44,666 nt of DNA from Sulfurimonas sp. (GTDB lineage: Bacteria; Campylobacterota; Campylobacteria; Campylobacterales; Sulfurimonadaceae). The notes beneath the pieces are model-generated. The model was not told where the DNA came from and ran no database searches. It saw nothing but the letters and a program-made list of their open reading frames with translations. The stretch lies in NCBI RefSeq assembly GCF_026988655.1, contig NZ_JALSKT010000054.1:1-44666 (forward strand). Direction: 5' to 3'. Positions 7,654 through 38,266 of the stretch are shown here, in pieces; the first letter of the stretch is position 1, and each line of letters begins with the position of its first letter. Both the position numbers and the translations under genes were made by a program.

Positions 7654-8085
7654 ATGTTAAAAAGAACATTTGCAAGTTTAGTTGTATCTGCAGGGCTAGT
7701 TTCAAGCTTAGGAGCGGAGACCTTAAAACATGATATGAATGTTTTAGCTACAAGTTTGGCATCAACACAAAGAGCTTTTTTACTTAACGATAGAGAAAAA
7801 GCTGTAAGACTATTAGCAGATTTAAAGAAAAATATTGACCACACTTTAGGTACAAAAGAAAAGGTAGTAGCTCTTTTACCTGAGGAATTAAAGTACAAAT
7901 CAAGAATAGCAATCAATAGTGGAAAAATGATTAATCACTACATTGATCAAATCAACGAAACTTTTGCAGATAAAAAGTTGTCTGATATTCAAGTACAAAT
8001 GGAATCTCAAGAGAGTCTGTTACACATACAAGCGCAATGTTATAAATGTCATAATCTTGTTCGTGATTGGGATAAAAACAGATAG
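7654..8085 (+). CDS. Small exported monoheme cytochrome c (C-terminal CXXCH)
   Basis: Protein of 143 residues with a signal peptide (MLKRTFASLVVSAGLVSSLGA, cleavage likely after A-E) and a largely helical body. A single heme motif CYKCH lies near residue 132, close to the C-terminus. A four-helix protein with the heme motif at the C-terminal end resembles class II cytochromes (c' type) and the small cytochromes of Campylobacterota. It should be periplasmic, carrying or sensing electrons or small ligands. AAAGGA lies about 8 bases before the ATG. It is a single-gene unit divergent from the ABC ATPase and is followed by a hairpin at 8097-8120. Its partner is unknown. Confidence 0.75.
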   Translation: MLKRTFASLVVSAGLVSSLGAETLKHDMNVLATSLASTQRAFLLNDREKAVRLLADLKKNIDHTLGTKEKVVALLPEELKYKSRIAINSGKMINHYIDQINETFADKKLSDIQVQMESQESLLHIQAQCYKCHNLVRDWDKNR

Positions 8086-23250: not shown

Positions 23251-24531
23251 CTACTTTGTAACTATGGCGAAACTCTGCTCTAAAATCTCTTTATGTTTTT
23301 TAATAAATGCATTTAAGTCTTTGAGTTTTAGTTTTTTAATCTTTTTCAATTCAACTTCGGAATGATTTAAATCAAATCCTTTGTAATAATCCATAAAAGT
23401 ACGGTTAAGTCTTTGACTCATTGTCTCCACTCTCAGTGGCTCACTTCCAAGTAAAAACTTCTTCGTTTGTTCAAGCTCATCTTCTGTCACACCATTTTTG
23501 ACAAACTTAGCAATCACATTAACTACTGTCTTTTTCGCTTCATCCATTGAATCGAGTTTTGTTTGTAAATATCCTGTCATATACGAGCTTGACTTACTCA
23601 CATGCACTCTTGCATAAGCTGAGTAGGCTAGTCCTCTTTTTACACGTATCTCTTCCATCAAACGACTTCCAAAACCACCTGTTCCTAAAATAAAAGTAGC
23701 AACTCTCGCTTTATAATAATCTTCATCATTTACAGCCATATCATATGGTGAACCAAAATAGATATAGGCTTGTTGTGTGTCACGTTTGAGTATGCTCTCT
23801 TTTGGATTTCTACTAGCCTCATAATGCGCTAAAGGTTCACTTTTTCCTTTTGGAAGAAGTTTTAAAATTTTACTAATATTTTTCTTTACCTCTTCGATAT
23901 CAACATCCCCACCTACAACAACAATCGCACGAGAGATAACTAAATGTTCTTTTACAAACCCTTTGACATCATCAAGTGTAATGCTCTTAACACTAGCAAC
24001 TGTTCCTGCGCTTGGTTGTGCCAAAGGTGTACCTGGGAAAAGTAATCTTTTGAGTTCATTTGAAGCAATATAATCAAAATCATTCTCTTTACGACTCAGT
24101 GATCCAAGCGTCATTGTTTTGACTTTGCTCAAAGCTGCTTCACTGTAATTGGGATCTTTTAAGAGTTCTGCTGTGTATTTCACTGCGTTTGAAAATTCAT
24201 CTTTTAGTGAACTACTCTCAAGTACAAAAGTCTCAGACCCTGTACTTGCAGATATATGGATAGCACGAGACTCTAGTTTCTCTGCAAAACCGTTCGAGCT
24301 CAGTTTTGCTGTCCCCTCATTTAAAATCTTTGCAGAAAATTTTGCCAAACCTGCTATTTTTGTGTCAGTGATGCTTCCACTATTTGTAAATACTATCTGT
24401 GTGTTCACAAGAGGGAGTCTCTTATCTTCTTCAAAAATCAAAGGTACCTTGATACCTTTTACTACTATACTATCTATTTTTGCTGCCATTAAAATCTGTC
24501 CTATTATTAAAAGTGTTAAAAGAAATTTCAT
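23251..24531 (-). CDS. M16-family peptidase homologue lacking the zinc-binding motif
   Basis: Protein of 426 residues with an N-terminal signal peptide (MKFLLTLLIIGQILMAA) and the fold of the M16B peptidases. The HXXEH position reads KFSAK in GLAKFSAKILNEGT, so the three expected zinc or catalytic residues are absent. The C-terminal substrate-binding Arg/Tyr pair is kept (RGLAYSAYARV). In M16 heterodimers one subunit is inactive in this way, as with YmxG-like or mitochondrial processing peptidase alpha types. Its neighbour mqnC is conserved next to a similar gene in Helicobacter (HP0656/HP0657) as I remember it. It is periplasmic by its signal and probably non-catalytic. Confidence 0.85.
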   Translation of the reverse strand: MKFLLTLLIIGQILMAAKIDSIVVKGIKVPLIFEEDKRLPLVNTQIVFTNSGSITDTKIAGLAKFSAKILNEGTAKLSSNGFAEKLESRAIHISASTGSETFVLESSSLKDEFSNAVKYTAELLKDPNYSEAALSKVKTMTLGSLSRKENDFDYIASNELKRLLFPGTPLAQPSAGTVASVKSITLDDVKGFVKEHLVISRAIVVVGGDVDIEEVKKNISKILKLLPKGKSEPLAHYEASRNPKESILKRDTQQAYIYFGSPYDMAVNDEDYYKARVATFILGTGGFGSRLMEEIRVKRGLAYSAYARVHVSKSSSYMTGYLQTKLDSMDEAKKTVVNVIAKFVKNGVTEDELEQTKKFLLGSEPLRVETMSQRLNRTFMDYYKGFDLNHSEVELKKIKKLKLKDLNAFIKKHKEILEQSFAIVTK

Positions 24532-25590
24532 CTATGCAAATATCTCTAAAGTCTCATATGCCGTATTTCTCACAGCAGCTGTCTCACCAATATCTTTTAT
24601 AAGGTGTACCATCTCATCTTTTGCCATGTGATACGCTGCACCTGCAGAACTCACAACATTTTCTTCCATCATAGTCGAACCTAAATCATTTGCACCAAAA
24701 CGCAGTGCCATTTGACCGATGTAAGGTCCTTGTGTAACCCATGAGCTTTGAATATTTGGTACATTATCAAGGTATAAACGAGCTACGGCAAGCAGACGCA
24801 AATAACGATTTGACGATGGTTTTTCCATATCAGGAATCAAACGCAGTAACTCTGTATTTTTCCCCTGAAAACTCCACATGATGAAGGCTCTAAAACCAGC
24901 TGTTTCATCTTGTAAATTACGTACCATATCTAAATGATTTATGATATCTTCATCACTCTCCACTGTTCCATACATCATCGTAGCTGTACTCATTATGCCA
25001 AGTTTATGTGCTTGACGGTGAACATCCACCCAAACTTCACTATCTATCTTTTTGGGAGCGATAATATCACGGACTTCATCTGAAAGTATCTCAGCACCCG
25101 CTCCTGGGATAGAAGCAAGACCTTTAGCTTTTAGGCGTGCTAGAACTTCTTGAATAGTGATACGAGAAACTTTAGCGATAAAATCAAGTTCGATAGAGCT
25201 AAATCCATGAATAGTAATAGTAGGATATTTTTGGTGGATATGTTCTACCAAATCCTCATACCACTCAATTTTTAGTTTTGGATGTACACCACCTTGAAAG
25301 AGTATCTGCGTACCACCTATTTCTAAGAGTTCATCTATCTTTGCATCTATTTCATCAAATGTAAGTACATAGGCATCTGCATCTTTTTCATGTCTATAAA
25401 AGGCACAAAACTTACAATCAACCCAACAAATATTTGTGTAGTTAATATTTCTATCAATCACAAAGGTTGTAATCCCATCAGGGTGTAGCTCTTTTTTGCG
25501 AGCACTCGCCATACGCCCAAGTTCTTTTAGATCAGCATTTTTTATCAGATCTAAAGCTTCTGCTTTTGTTAGTCTTTTCACTATTTCCAT
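24532..25590 (-). CDS. mqnC: Cyclic dehypoxanthinyl futalosine synthase (radical SAM)
   Basis: Radical SAM enzyme of 352 residues, with the iron-sulfur motif CWVDCKFC (Cys55, 59 and 62 counted from ATG 25590). The region HPDGITTFVIDRNINYTNICWV, the GGTQILFQGGVHPKLKIEWYEDL stretch and IPGAGAEILSDEVR are typical of MqnC, which cyclises dehypoxanthine futalosine in the alternative menaquinone pathway. The start may be GTG 25581 instead, which has GAGG about 9 bases upstream, whereas ATG 25590 has none well placed. It overlaps the 12-heme cytochrome stop, so is translationally coupled to it. Confidence 0.95.
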   Translation of the reverse strand: MEIVKRLTKAEALDLIKNADLKELGRMASARKKELHPDGITTFVIDRNINYTNICWVDCKFCAFYRHEKDADAYVLTFDEIDAKIDELLEIGGTQILFQGGVHPKLKIEWYEDLVEHIHQKYPTITIHGFSSIELDFIAKVSRITIQEVLARLKAKGLASIPGAGAEILSDEVRDIIAPKKIDSEVWVDVHRQAHKLGIMSTATMMYGTVESDEDIINHLDMVRNLQDETAGFRAFIMWSFQGKNTELLRLIPDMEKPSSNRYLRLLAVARLYLDNVPNIQSSWVTQGPYIGQMALRFGANDLGSTMMEENVVSSAGAAYHMAKDEMVHLIKDIGETAAVRNTAYETLEIFA

Positions 25591-28010
25591 CCTCTATTTC
25601 TTGATCTAATTGATTTCCTTTTGATAAATATTTTGTAAAATATATACATCAAAAACATTCCAATAAATATACCAACTATAACTTGTACCCAAGCCGCAAG
25701 ATTTAGTATCTTGCTTAATATATTCATATGCTCTTTTTTATCTATTTGAATATCAGCCATCTCTGCAATATGTGTCATTGCAGAAACTGCTAGATTACCA
25801 TCAGGAATACTCTCATGACAAGCGATACAAGCACCTGCTCTATCTGTTTTATCAATTTGCTCTTTTGACAAAGGCTGTGAGAGTTTCCAGTGATGCCCTA
25901 CAGTTTGGAGTTGTGTACCATTTTTATCCAAAAATTTCGAGTAATCAAAATGAAGATTAGGAATTGCTGGAATTTGCTTATCAATAATCGTTGGCATTAT
26001 TTTTCCATCCGCACTCATAATGTCCACTATCGCATCAACCGAAGGATCAAAAGTTGTTCTTGACCCTGTTATACCATAGCCTAGTGCTTTTGGCGTTGCA
26101 TGACAACTCTCACAACTTCTTGGCTCTTTTTGTATAGTATGTGGTTGAATTGGTGCCATATCTATAGCATTTTGTCCTTCTGCTCCAGCACCTTCAACAT
26201 TTGGAATTTTAAAGATATGATTTTGCAGGAGTGCTTTTCCATCTTTTCCTATAACTGTAATCGTTGTTTGACATCCAGGAATGGTAGGAGAGATTCTTCC
26301 CTCACCATTTTGAGAGAGTGCAGGATCTTCCCAACGTAAAAAACTTCGCGTCTCTATGACTTTACCATCTACTAAATAATTTTGTAATGATTTACGCATC
26401 ACTCCCGTCGTTCCATGTAAATCATGATCGTGAGAAGATTGTAAAAAATCGGGGTTTTGTTTCCCACCGCTATAGTCTATTTTTACATGACAGCCATAAC
26501 ATTGTGGCGCCCATGTTGCATGACAGGTATAACATTCAAGTCTATCATTATGTGCAGTAATTTTATCCATTGCTAAGAGCCCAACTTTGGATAATTTTTC
26601 TTGTTTTTTTAGTAGTTTTAATGGTTTTAAAATGACATCTTTACCACTTGCAAGATGCATTACAACTTCATTGCCTTTTTTTGTTGCATGAATAAGTGGA
26701 TTTCCACGTGCAGAGAGAAGATACCCATCATCTGCTGCGTTTAGAGATCCTTGCTTGAGATATTTTGCCATTGTTTGGGTCACACCTCTGGCTTTTCCTC
26801 TCTTTGGTTTTGTTTGAAACTCATCCGAATAGCCTAAAGGTAATTCCCAAGGGTATTTTTTTGTCGTTCCATGACAATCTTGACACTCTATCTCAACAGC
26901 ACCTGCATTGGCACCACTTAAAAATCCATCGCCATGCATATCATTTGAGGTATGACAATCCTGACACAACATCCCTTTTTTAAAATGCACATCACCTTGC
27001 ATATGAATATATCTTTTTGTGTGAAGTTTTGGCTGAGGATTACCATGCTCATCAAAAGTCGCATTGTATGCAGTCTCCATAAGTCCTTGATATGAAACCC
27101 CTATACGCTTTCCACGGTTATGGCAAGTCGAGCATGTCTCTGTAGGGATACCTGAGTAACTTTGTCCATGTACAGTAACTTTAGTACCTCGAGAAGATTG
27201 AATCTGATGTACTAAAAGGTGCCCTTTTTCTTTATGGGAGATGCTTTTATCTCCACCTTCATAATAGCCCTCATTAGAGTAAGGAATATGACAAGCTGCA
27301 CAACCAATACCGCGATAATCACCTCTTTTTTGACGTCCTTTACTTCCCGTATGACAACGTAAACACTCTTGACGAAGATAGGTATATACAGCCAATGATG
27401 GATCTTTTTCAACTTCTTCTGCTGTTGGTGCAGCTGGAAGTTCTTTCATCTCGCTTGGAAAAGCCTGCGGTTCCATTTTTGAGAGTTTTTGCATATATTC
27501 TCTATATGTTTTTGTTCCCAAACGCGTATGTATATCTTGTGGATTTTTTGTTACATAGTTCCCAACGTTGTGCTTATATCCCTCTTTAGCACCAAAGCTC
27601 CAAAGTGCTCCTTGAATTTTTCCCTGCTCTGTCATCATAAGAGAATTCATCTGTGCTGCCACTTCTTCTTTATGACACATACCACAAGTATTTTGGTTTA
27701 TCCAAGTACTCCCAGGTGCTGGATAAAACTCTTTTGGACCCTCATGGGTTAAAAAGAATTTTATCGTTCCTTTATGTGCTTTAAATTTATGTCTTGTTGC
27801 CGGATTTCCCCCATGACAAACAATACAGCTGTTTTTTGGATACCCTGCCTCACTGGCTTTTTTTGCTATAGCTTTTGCCATGCCAGATTGCACATCTCGA
27901 ATATGTTCAATTCCACCATGACATTTCAAACAATTGTTAGTTTTTGTAAAGCTAGATGCTCCAAACAAAAAAGTCGAAGCAAAAAGAGCAAGCAGAAGTA
28001 TCTTTTTCAT
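25581..28010 (-). CDS. Dodecaheme c-type cytochrome, membrane anchored
   Basis: Large exported cytochrome of 809 residues: signal peptide (MKKILLLALFASTFLFGA), twelve CXXCH heme motifs (the first at residues 27, 62 and 109, then spread to near 730) and a C-terminal membrane helix (WVQVIVGIFIGMFLMYIFY) followed by a basic tail. It would sit in the periplasm anchored to the inner membrane, so it could pass electrons from the quinone pool to a terminal reductase or the reverse. I cannot match it to a named enzyme: it has no CX15CH or CXXCK site of the sulfite or nitrite reductases. It is encoded directly before mqnC in the operon with kdsA, ribH and nusB. Confidence 0.85.
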   Translation of the reverse strand: MKKILLLALFASTFLFGASSFTKTNNCLKCHGGIEHIRDVQSGMAKAIAKKASEAGYPKNSCIVCHGGNPATRHKFKAHKGTIKFFLTHEGPKEFYPAPGSTWINQNTCGMCHKEEVAAQMNSLMMTEQGKIQGALWSFGAKEGYKHNVGNYVTKNPQDIHTRLGTKTYREYMQKLSKMEPQAFPSEMKELPAAPTAEEVEKDPSLAVYTYLRQECLRCHTGSKGRQKRGDYRGIGCAACHIPYSNEGYYEGGDKSISHKEKGHLLVHQIQSSRGTKVTVHGQSYSGIPTETCSTCHNRGKRIGVSYQGLMETAYNATFDEHGNPQPKLHTKRYIHMQGDVHFKKGMLCQDCHTSNDMHGDGFLSGANAGAVEIECQDCHGTTKKYPWELPLGYSDEFQTKPKRGKARGVTQTMAKYLKQGSLNAADDGYLLSARGNPLIHATKKGNEVVMHLASGKDVILKPLKLLKKQEKLSKVGLLAMDKITAHNDRLECYTCHATWAPQCYGCHVKIDYSGGKQNPDFLQSSHDHDLHGTTGVMRKSLQNYLVDGKVIETRSFLRWEDPALSQNGEGRISPTIPGCQTTITVIGKDGKALLQNHIFKIPNVEGAGAEGQNAIDMAPIQPHTIQKEPRSCESCHATPKALGYGITGSRTTFDPSVDAIVDIMSADGKIMPTIIDKQIPAIPNLHFDYSKFLDKNGTQLQTVGHHWKLSQPLSKEQIDKTDRAGACIACHESIPDGNLAVSAMTHIAEMADIQIDKKEHMNILSKILNLAAWVQVIVGIFIGMFLMYIFYKIFIKRKSIRSRNRGWK

Positions 28011-28016
28011 TTCATT

Positions 28017-28418
28017 TTACTTTTTGTCTTTTGATATTGCGTCTAAAACACCGTTGATAAATTTTGGAGACTGCTCTGTTCCAAATGCTTTTGTGATTTC
28101 CACTGCCTCATTAATAACAACAGCAGAATCTAGTTCACCATAAAGAATCTCAAACGCAGCTAAACGCAGTGTCGCTCTCTCAATCGCACCCAAACGTTCA
28201 AAATCCCAATCTTTCAAATGCTCAATGATGGCTTTATCAATAGCTTCAATATGTTCCATAACACCCTCATAAAGACCAAGAGCAAAATCCTTTTGTTTAT
28301 TACGAATTTTTTTCTCTTCAAGTATCTCGTTTGAGTGCTCCGATGTGTTTCCGTTTCCTAAATCATATGCGTATAAAAGGCTTACAACAGCCATACGTGC
28401 TTGTTGACGAGTAGCCAT
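28017..28418 (-). CDS. nusB: Transcription antitermination factor NusB
   Basis: All-helical protein of 133 residues with [22 protein letters not shown] at the start and ERATLRLAAFEILYG and VVINEAVEITKAFGTEQSPKFINGVLDAI, the conserved C-terminal motif. NusB, with NusE (S10), binds the boxA of rRNA leaders to prevent termination. It overlaps the ribH stop by one base and carries the tandem AAACGCAG pair at 28152-28169. Confidence 0.96.
   Translation of the reverse strand: MATRQQARMAVVSLLYAYDLGNGNTSEHSNEILEEKKIRNKQKDFALGLYEGVMEHIEAIDKAIIEHLKDWDFERLGAIERATLRLAAFEILYGELDSAVVINEAVEITKAFGTEQSPKFINGVLDAISKDKK
28152..28169 (+). repeat. Tandem pair of the dispersed word AAACGCAG, with all copies in the window listed
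   Basis: Two copies of AAACGCAG ten bases apart (CAAACGCAGC TAAACGCAGT) inside nusB. Exact copies read by eye on the plus strand start at 904, 2890, 4409, 10280, 11752, 14064, 14449, 18423, 18620, 19556, 24698, 24839, 28152, 28162, 35574 and 41414. Copies of the complement CTGCGTTT start at 327, 2729, 15907, 17179, 17691, 20030, 24183, 26735, 31872 and 38035. All 26 are followed by C or T when read as AAACGCAG, and 24 are preceded by C or T. I estimate about one copy by chance at this base composition. Confidence 0.85.
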
Positions 28419-28882
28419 TATAGTGCCTCGTATAGATCTAACATCTCTATCACAACCGTCATCGCTTCAAAGCCTTTGTTTCCTGCTTTTGTTCCAGCAC
28501 GTTCAATTGATTGCTCGATAGTATCTGTTGTTAAAAGACCAAAAGATACTGGTTTTTGATACTTTAAGCTCATCGTAGCGATGCCTTTTGTAGCTTCAGC
28601 TGATACATAATCAAAATGAGGTGTAGCCCCACGGATCACTGCACCTAAAGCACAAACAGCGTCATATTTTCCACTCGCTAAGAGTTGATCTACAATCATT
28701 GGAAGCTCAAATGCACCAGGCACTAAAACATGAGTCAAGTCTGCTTCATCACCACCATGACGATCAAATGCATCTTTTGCACCTTCAACTAATCTGTCAA
28801 CGATAAAATGATTCCATCTTGTACTCACTATTGCAATTTTTTTGCCGTTTACTACTTTTAACTTACCTTCTATCAAATTCAT
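28418..28882 (-). CDS. ribH: 6,7-dimethyl-8-ribityllumazine synthase
   Basis: Protein of 154 residues, the normal RibH length, with [47 protein letters not shown] (catalytic His) and [25 protein letters not shown]. It condenses the ribitylaminouracil and dihydroxybutanone phosphate to lumazine, the penultimate step of riboflavin. I start at ATG 28882 with AAGGA about 7 bases upstream. A longer frame continues upstream but is only a lysine-rich non-conserved extension. It lies 17 bases after kdsA. Confidence 0.95.
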
Positions 28883-28899
28883 TTTACTTTTCCTTATTT

Positions 28900-29694
28900 T
28901 TAGTTTATTGCTTGAATTTTTTTGATTTTTTCTATGAGACTTTCTAGTTGTTCTAATCTTAGCATATTTGGACCATCGCTCAAAGCACAACTTGGGTCAA
29001 AATGTGTCTCAAAGAAAAATCCATCTACACCTATTGCTGCTGCTGCACTTGCAAGATAAGGTACCATGGAACTATCTCCACCTGTTTTTCCATTTTGAGC
29101 AGTTGGCATTTGTACCGAGTGTGTTGCATCAAAAATCACAGGAGCAAACTTTCGCATAAGCACGAGATTTCTCATATCTACGACTAAGTTTCCATACCCA
29201 AAAGTATTACCCCGCTCGCAAAGATATACTCCGTGTTTTACAGAGTTTTCATAACTTGCTTCGCTGCAACCTCTTGTTTGTAAAACTTTTAAAAGCGGAT
29301 ACTGCATCGCATTTGCATCCAAAAACTGACCTTTTTTGATGTTTATTTCACGGTCAGTTTTTGCACAAGCGACAAGTAAATCTGTTTGACGACACAAAAA
29401 TGCGGGAATTTGCAATATATCTACAACTTCTGCCACAACTGGAACTTGAGTACTTTCATGCACATCAGTAACAATTTTATAGCCAAAGTCATCTTTGACC
29501 TTTTGTAAAATTCTTAAGCCTTCATCTATTCCAAGCCCACGAAAACTCTCTAAAGAAGTTCTATTTGCTTTATCAAAACTTGCTTTAAAATAAAAATCTA
29601 TCGTTTCATCTTTTTGATATTTTTCTAAGCCTTTTGCTATTTTAAAAATATTCTCTTCACTTTCAATAACACAAGGTCCTGCTAAAAGTTTCAT
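28900..29694 (-). CDS. kdsA: 3-deoxy-8-phosphooctulonate synthase
   Basis: KdsA of 264 residues, slightly shorter than the 275-285 norm at its N-terminus. [14 protein letters not shown] opens the barrel, [20 protein letters not shown] binds phosphoenolpyruvate, VTDVHEST and [14 protein letters not shown] follow, and [15 protein letters not shown] and [19 protein letters not shown] form the C-terminal metal and substrate region. It makes Kdo-8-phosphate for lipopolysaccharide. First gene of the long operon to recD2. It starts 43 bases downstream of the toxin-like locus. Confidence 0.96.
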
Positions 29695-37078: not shown

Positions 37079-38263
37079 TTACTTGAGACTGATAGAACTT
37101 GTTGTGATAAAACTTTTTTTAGACCATATTTCATCTTTAAGATCCAAAAGTGTACGGACTTCTTTATTTACAAGACGATAATACAAACTTACCTCTACAC
37201 TATTTGCATCCTTAAATAAGGCTACTTTTACCACTTTTTTTCCGTGTGCTCTTACACTTTCATCTTTACTTTGACTTGTAGCAAGATGTGGAATCGTCGG
37301 TTTATTTCTTTTTCGCATATAGCGTCTTGTCAATGAAATTGATTCCTCTTTTAAAATAGTAAAACCTTTTTTATAAGTCACGTCTAAAACCAGCTCCCTT
37401 GAACCAAATCCACTTGGTATATTATGAGGCTGAGGATTAAGAATAGTTATCTCTAGCTTATTATGTACTTTTTTCAGTTTTAGTGCAAGTGCATCTTTCC
37501 ACATACGAGCAGTATGTCCACCTTTAAAACCATGATGACGCACCATACGCATTTTTTCTTTGCCATTAAATTGATACGTTGCAGCAACATCACGTCTTTT
37601 TTTACCCATATGACAATCTACGCAACTTTTTTTGCCAACAAATTCACTCTGCATATCTGTAAAAACTAGACCACCTAAAGCTCTATCATTTGCATGACAT
37701 ACAAAACAAAGTTTATTTGGATTTTCATTCATAAACTCGTGAGAGATTACTTTGTGATAAGGAGATTTTGCATCTCTGTAAGGACCTGTCATTACACCTG
37801 AAGCTGTCCATTCTACTCTGTTGATACCACGTTTTGTTTTATCATATTCATCATGAATCTTAGCGATACTATGACAAACAACACAGTTTATCCCCTCACT
37901 AATGGCCTTAGAATTAACCGCTTGTTCAACTTCATCGCCTTTTGTAAGTCCCATAACCGCGGCAATGTCATAATCTTCATCTGTTGTTGTGACACTTATA
38001 CGCGGATTATGGCAAGTTGCACACTGTACTTTTACTGCGTTTAGACTTTTTCTACTTTTACGGCTAACATACTTAAGACTCTTTGCAAAGTACTCATCTT
38101 TAGCAAAATGACTTTTAGAGTGCCAAGAGTTTTCCCACTCTTCTACTATTCGTTTATGACAAACCTTACATTTAGTAGAACTCTCAAATCGCTCTCCTAC
38201 TTTTACAACTTCTGCTCCAAAGAGCATATTAAACGCAATGATAAAAAGTAAGAAGAGTTTCAT
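37079..38263 (-). CDS. Exported pentaheme c-type cytochrome
   Basis: Protein of 394 residues: signal peptide (MKLFLLFIIAFNMLFGA) and five CXXCH motifs (CKVCH, CATCH, CVVCH, CFVCH, CVDCH) in the first half. The C-terminal half is a heme-free beta domain (KLEITILNPQPHNIPSGFGSRELVLDV). The N-terminal pattern CXXCH followed by W-x-x-S-x-H resembles the cytochrome c554/NrfB-like group that passes electrons between periplasmic enzymes. The reaction is unknown. I use ATG 38263; AGGAC lies upstream at suitable distance. It follows argF by three bases. Confidence 0.82.
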   Translation of the reverse strand: MKLFLLFIIAFNMLFGAEVVKVGERFESSTKCKVCHKRIVEEWENSWHSKSHFAKDEYFAKSLKYVSRKSRKSLNAVKVQCATCHNPRISVTTTDEDYDIAAVMGLTKGDEVEQAVNSKAISEGINCVVCHSIAKIHDEYDKTKRGINRVEWTASGVMTGPYRDAKSPYHKVISHEFMNENPNKLCFVCHANDRALGGLVFTDMQSEFVGKKSCVDCHMGKKRRDVAATYQFNGKEKMRMVRHHGFKGGHTARMWKDALALKLKKVHNKLEITILNPQPHNIPSGFGSRELVLDVTYKKGFTILKEESISLTRRYMRKRNKPTIPHLATSQSKDESVRAHGKKVVKVALFKDANSVEVSLYYRLVNKEVRTLLDLKDEIWSKKSFITTSSISLK

Positions 38264-38266
38264 CAC

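Follow-up and report, generated by a model that had tools for sequence, protein, structure and literature searches.

ExtM (GSU2935; NCBIfam NF040943) is a 12-heme cytochrome encoded in the extHIJKLMNOPQS cluster of Geobacter. An extI mutant of Geobacter shows diminished reduction of selenite and tellurite, disruption of the downstream cytochrome genes is stated to impair selenite reduction (PMC5877670), and relatives of ExtM are present in Geobacter and in cable bacteria (PMC5877670, PMC11976967). Here we describe a gene, designated CYT12, in a 44,666-nucleotide stretch of the genome of a sulfur-oxidising marine Sulfurimonas sp. (contig NZ_JALSKT010000054.1, positions 1 to 44,666; hereafter the window), which extends this poorly understood group beyond Geobacter and cable bacteria. 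Starting from the signal peptide, the 12 CXXCH motifs, the C-terminal helix, the homology to ExtM and the 12 candidate distal histidines present in its sequence, we infer, with moderate confidence, that CYT12 is an inner-membrane-anchored, periplasm-facing, 12-heme electron conduit of the ExtM group that links the menaquinone pool and the periplasm. Many sulfidic and hydrothermal waters are dominated by Campylobacterota such as Sulfurimonas and Sulfurovum, and CYT12 is a large, conserved cytochrome of these bacteria to which no function has been assigned.

The CYT12 open reading frame (ORF) starts with ATG, 6 bases past the stop codon of nusB, and encodes a product of 809 amino acids. The product contains twelve CXXCH motifs, compared with an expectation of 0.03 and a maximum of 2 in 2000 shuffles of its own sequence. 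No lipobox was seen at the N-terminus, where the first cysteine belongs to heme motif 1, and neither CX15CH nor CXXCK was found in a motif scan of the 809 residues. The sole strong hydrophobic stretch at the C-terminus spans residues ~764-797 (Kyte-Doolittle mean, up to 2.25), and residues 758-797 form one helix in both AlphaFold2 models of the protein. The stop codon of CYT12 and the start of mqnC overlap by 10 bp (25581..25590). A preliminary description, made from the sequence alone, had listed the 12 motifs, the C-terminal membrane helix, the overlap with mqnC and the lack of CX15CH and CXXCK, and the ORF, motif and hydropathy analyses agree with it on all of these. Relatives of CYT12 are encoded on 328 contig stretches, the best 80 of which were used for analysis; since the protein is conserved over its full length at 62-88% identity in most of these 80 loci, CYT12 can be regarded as a real gene (loci are numbered with the prefix L below).

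CYT12 matched the ExtM profile of NCBIfam with an E value of 1.3e-66 (225 bits; cut-off, 800), and in a whole-genome search with the same profile the match (204 bits) covered profile positions 3-578 of 599. The order of the hemes was judged through L141, a soluble ExtM-like protein of 593 amino acids from another genus of the same taxonomic family (273 bits to ExtM); in a profile alignment between the CYT12 family and L141 (E 2.7e-47), all 12 hemes pair one to one. CYT12 is therefore not an orphan, and by its sequence it is a membrane-anchored member of the ExtM group with insertions, i.e. a distant relative that is distinct from ExtM itself. Pfam assigned generic cytochrome c7/c3/c554 domains and the MtrC/MtrF domain PF22113 (46.7 bits; cut-off, 30). 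Only generic or sub-cut-off matches to characterised multiheme enzymes were obtained in Pfam, NCBIfam and PDB sequence searches, and none of the sulfite, tetrathionate, nitrite and hydroxylamine enzyme families exceeded its cut-off in the profile searches. TIGR03507 gave no match in the NCBIfam search, and the score against TIGR03153 (NrfH) was 22 bits (cut-off, 134). The hidden Markov model searches proposed in the preliminary description thus placed CYT12 in no characterised multiheme enzyme family above cut-off.

Exactly twelve histidines outside the heme motifs (residues 79, 264, 268, 330, 336, 342, 359, 452, 487, 624, 707 and 761) are conserved in the 65 twelve-heme rows of the alignment, which comprise 60 anchored and 5 soluble proteins. 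The nusB-mqnC site holds not only 12-heme versions of the protein but also 11-heme (L050), 10-heme (L181; L139, L140 and L177-L179) and 7-heme (L136-L138) versions. In L050, motif 10 is altered to RYGRH within conserved surroundings; L181 has HLRSH and HYGSQ in place of motifs 4 and 10, respectively, with the flanking sequences conserved; and the remaining 10-heme forms have lost motif 4 by deletion and motif 10 by degradation or deletion. Heme and histidine are lost jointly in 13 of 14 rows for heme 10 and His330, in 5 of 6 rows for heme 4 and His707 and in all 4 rows for heme 12 and His761 (full counts in Table 1), the rows being related, so that the independent loss events are fewer than these row counts. 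No row retains heme 4, 10 or 12 without its paired histidine. For hemes 4 and 10, the one row that departs from joint loss is L181, in which the cysteines are gone and the histidines are kept, a pattern that would be expected after a recent heme loss. His264 and His452 are among the other histidines missing in the reduced forms. In a soluble group of relatives, group C (L182-L184 and L187), hemes 10 and 12, His761 and the membrane helix are all absent, and the number of distal histidine candidates again equals the number of hemes.

Because twelve conserved distal histidines are available for twelve hemes and hemes and histidines are lost in pairs, all hemes of CYT12 are probably bis-histidine ligated. 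Such ligation would leave no obvious five-coordinate heme, which argues for an electron carrier over an enzyme; the undescribed reductase or oxidase suggested in the preliminary description loses ground for the same reasons. His761 is located three residues before the hydrophobic stretch, and since it adjoins the membrane helix, heme 12 is likely to be the membrane-side heme. In the proposed conduit, the low-spin bis-histidine hemes would together make up a wire. Electron exchange with the menaquinone pool or a membrane partner would take place at heme 12, which His761 would hold beside the helix, and the other hemes would relay electrons to soluble redox partners in the periplasm or carry them back. 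Hemes 4 and 10 appear to be dispensable and perhaps constitute one functional pair. The pairs heme 10-His330, heme 4-His707 and heme 12-His761 are predicted ligand pairs for structural work.

Several points weigh against the conduit. The covariation reflects few independent losses, that of heme 12 having occurred in one lineage only, and a conservation of 62-88% across genera seems more than a generic wire needs. In addition, the gene context of a second soluble group, group B (L185, L186 and L188-L190; five 12-heme proteins that are 46-49% identical and lack the helix), looks like that of a regulated respiratory enzyme, not of a plain wire. In the loci inspected, the group B gene is followed by one or two genes for thioredoxin-fold proteins and, where the contig reaches that far, has nearby genes for an OmpR-type response regulator and a Cache-type sensor kinase, which are divergently transcribed in L185, L186 and L188; Pfam assignments cover L186 and L188. 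This context is what most favours a regulated role in respiration, possibly involving sulfur or chalcogen compounds, and it is the reason why a catalytic role for CYT12, as a multiheme reductase or oxidase that acts on a compound of sulfur, selenium or tellurium and draws on menaquinol as donor via the anchor, retains some weight although we consider it rather unlikely. One group C member, which has DsbA-like genes adjacent to it, points in the same direction, as do the extI mutant and preliminary mutants in cytochrome genes that tie the Geobacter ExtM operon to the reduction of selenite and tellurite (PMC5877670); ExtM itself, however, is not known to be the reductase. The first AlphaFold2 model of CYT12 was weak (predicted local distance difference test score [pLDDT], 65), and its best structural match, obtained with VIA, was the octaheme cytochrome 1sp3 (Z 5.5, 204 residues, 4.4 A), a weak match that was not reproduced with the better model built from a more diverse alignment (pLDDT, 78.5; predicted template modelling score, 0.78). 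A Foldseek search against the PDB gave no significant match for either model. Since group C and the 12-heme rows alike have as many distal histidine candidates as hemes, no open site would be left, and none of the enzyme families named above exceeded its cut-off.

It is also conceivable, albeit improbable, that CYT12 is the inner-membrane step of an extracellular electron transfer route in which electrons are exchanged, in either direction, with minerals (for instance manganese oxide) or with other cells. The presence of ExtM relatives in Geobacter and cable bacteria and the MtrC/MtrF domain match in CYT12 are consistent with such a role, as is the existence of a Sulfurimonas that reduces manganese oxide (cited in PMC11748539). 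However, a DmsE/MtrA-type conduit cytochrome is absent from the genome that contains the window at E 1e-20, and a search of 135 genomes of the genus found none above cut-off. Neither a porin nor an outer-membrane cytochrome was recognised beside CYT12 in the loci read. A link with nitrate respiration was considered as well and discarded: NapA is uninformative because almost all members of the genus have it, and a second molybdoenzyme looked assimilatory.

The preliminary description had further proposed that CYT12 and mqnC form an operon linking heme-protein production with menaquinone supply. The mqnC gene is genuine (PRK08445, 664 bits, cut-off 576; TIGR03699, 500 bits, cut-off 428), and the gene order in the Sulfurimonas group is kdsA-ribH-nusB-[CYT12]-[DUF302]-mqnC-M16. 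In almost every Sulfurimonadaceae locus that extends far enough, CYT12 directly adjoins mqnC or has just the DUF302 gene in between, which would favour a functional coupling. However, nusB and mqnC remain neighbours in 12 of the 14 same-genus genomes examined that lack CYT12 (directly adjacent in nine, with the DUF302 gene between them in two and with short unassigned ORFs in one), mqnC being located elsewhere in the other two. Moreover, in Sulfurovum-type bacteria, other Campylobacterota and Bacteroidota, CYT12 is found at unrelated sites away from mqnC, and no conserved partner gene of the anchored form was found in the loci read outside Sulfurimonadaceae. Because the block persists without CYT12 and CYT12 sits elsewhere outside Sulfurimonadaceae, mqnC is probably a bystander placed beside CYT12 by housekeeping synteny. 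It was rejected as a functional partner, and a coupling of CYT12 to menaquinone synthesis through an mqnC operon is extremely doubtful. The quinol-linked periplasmic route that the preliminary description derived from this operon is nevertheless plausible for a membrane-anchored periplasmic multiheme protein; it is the argument from mqnC that falls away.

A secreted DUF302 protein of ~148 amino acids is often encoded between CYT12 and mqnC (L010:4628-5077 (+), L012, L018, L031, L084 and others). Its gene is absent from the window locus and is present without CYT12 in L115, L130 and L135. The mqnC product of the window begins with MEIVKRL, resembling the MEIVKK start of the DUF302 protein. Literature searches on 12-heme cytochromes of Campylobacterota and on a link with DUF302 brought up no description of CYT12.

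The best 80 of the 328 stretches derive mainly from Campylobacterota of vents or sediments, among them Sulfurimonas and Sulfurovum, and include three Bacteroidota contigs. The cultivated S. indica NW8N (L044) is among the carriers of CYT12. CYT12 was matched in 61 of the 151 genomes of the Sulfurimonadaceae family set and, in a sample of Campylobacterota, in 35 of 298 genomes and 15 of 58 genera. In phylogenetic trees, whose root is unreliable owing to a very distant outgroup, the Bacteroidota copies form a single supported clade nested among the anchored forms of Campylobacterota, and this position suggests that they were acquired by lateral transfer, apparently from Campylobacterota. The three contigs (L068, L077 and L079) originate from vent or marine metagenomes and carry the anchored 12-heme gene. 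The CYT12 gene would act as one unit passing from genome to genome, and its place in the kdsA-ribH-nusB-mqnC housekeeping operon of Sulfurimonas would be due to chance. The 12-, 11-, 10- and 7-heme relatives amount to a natural experiment on the hemes that can be dispensed with in an electron wire. As a tentative and more far-reaching possibility, CYT12 may be a self-contained, single-gene conduit between menaquinol and the periplasm that has spread in Campylobacterota, has been passed to vent Bacteroidota and sheds its hemes singly (12, 11, 10, 7, none) at one fixed site, with the loss of the distal histidine following each, so that the site would represent a series of natural deletions in a heme wire. 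The metagenome bin JALSKR contains two CYT12-mqnC-M16 loci (L002 and L041), whose CYT12 proteins share 88% and 66% identity, respectively, with that of the window and possibly come from two strains mixed in one bin.

Other cytochrome genes were also noticed. A second multiheme cytochrome, a distant relative of Geobacter ExtKL with a signal peptide and 5 CXXCH motifs (395 amino acids; 66 bits, cut-off 250), is encoded in the window at 37079-38266 (-), 9 kb from CYT12; its orthologues are common in the family and also occur in genera without CYT12. A coupling between the two is unsupported, co-occurrence being weak (15/30 vs 9/28; Fisher p 0.19). At L141:1379-4455 and in L175 (G038 C56), genes for ExtM-like (12-heme) and ExtN-like (8-heme) proteins directly follow a membrane complex resembling group 4 hydrogenases. 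The NiFe cysteines seem to be missing from the large subunit of this complex, in which RISGNES replaces the usual motif, so the complex is perhaps of the Ehr type with a cytochrome partner. Small secreted proteins of ~143 amino acids with a single CXXCH, similar in size and start, are encoded in the window at 7654-8085 (+) and at L197:3356-3784 (-), and in L197 one such gene directly adjoins CYT12. A CcsBA-like cytochrome c assembly gene is located near the group B gene in L188. The features of the CYT12 locus are listed in Table 1.

Table 1. Features of the CYT12 locus, in window coordinates. Covariation counts are alignment rows with heme and histidine both present/heme only/histidine only/neither. 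CDS, coding sequence.
Feature	Position	Strand	Basis
CYT12, 12-heme C-terminally membrane-anchored ExtM-like cytochrome CDS	25581..28010	-	ORF, profile searches, motifs
Signal peptide, residues ~1-18	27957..28010	-	Hydropathy and sequence; cleavage position approximate
Heme motif 1 CLKCH, residues 27-31	27918..27932	-	Motif scan
Heme motif 2 CIVCH, residues 62-66	27813..27827	-	Motif scan
Heme motif 3 CGMCH, residues 109-113	27672..27686	-	Motif scan
Heme motif 4 CLRCH, residues 216-220, missing in 10-heme relatives	27351..27365	-	Motif scan, alignment
Heme motif 5 CAACH, residues 237-241	27288..27302	-	Motif scan
Heme motif 6 CSTCH, residues 293-297	27120..27134	-	Motif scan
His330, predicted distal ligand of heme 10	27021..27023	-	Covariation 65/0/1/13
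Heme motif 7 CQDCH, residues 349-353, core	26952..26966	-	Motif scan, relatives
Heme motif 8 CQDCH, residues 376-380, core	26871..26885	-	Motif scan, relatives
Heme motif 9 CYTCH, residues 493-497, core	26520..26534	-	Motif scan, relatives
Heme motif 10 CYGCH, residues 504-508, repeatedly lost among relatives	26487..26501	-	Motif scan, alignment
Heme motif 11 CESCH, residues 633-637, core	26100..26114	-	Motif scan, relatives
His707, predicted distal ligand of heme 4	25890..25892	-	Covariation 73/0/1/5
Heme motif 12 CIACH, residues 728-732, predicted membrane-proximal	25815..25829	-	Motif scan, covariation
His761, predicted distal ligand of heme 12	25728..25730	-	Covariation 75/0/0/4, hydropathy
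C-terminal transmembrane helix, residues ~764-797, then basic tail	25620..25721	-	Hydropathy; AlphaFold2 helix 758-797
mqnC, cyclic dehypoxanthinyl futalosine synthase	24532..25590	-	Profile match
nusB, housekeeping neighbour upstream	28017..28418	-	Profile match, synteny
ribH, true start probably later	28418..28990	-	Profile match, synteny
kdsA, member of conserved block	28900..29694	-	Profile match, synteny
M16 peptidase family gene, after mqnC in most relatives	23251..24531	-	Pfam, synteny

CYT12 shares with ExtM the 12 hemes and homology over nearly the whole profile. Unlike ExtM, it is ~200 amino acids longer, has an added C-terminal membrane helix and scores 225 bits, below the cut-off of 800, and its neighbours are nusB, ribH, kdsA, mqnC and the M16 gene in place of an ext gene cluster. 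Cytochromes of the NrfH/NapC type are anchored at the N-terminus and carry about 4 hemes. They resemble CYT12 as membrane-anchored periplasmic multiheme proteins and in the possible uptake of electrons from menaquinol that is proposed here for CYT12, whereas the anchor of CYT12 is C-terminal, which distinguishes it from NrfH, NapC and NirT, and its TIGR03153 score is far below cut-off. NrfA, octaheme tetrathionate reductase, MccA and hydroxylamine oxidoreductase are, like CYT12, periplasmic and rich in c-type hemes; unlike these catalytic enzymes, CYT12 has neither CXXCK nor CX15CH, has no family match above cut-off and has as many candidate distal histidines as hemes. With the outer-membrane decaheme cytochromes MtrC and OmcA, CYT12 shares the PF22113 domain match, but it differs from them in having no visible lipobox, a C-terminal anchor of the inner-membrane type and no mtr cluster.

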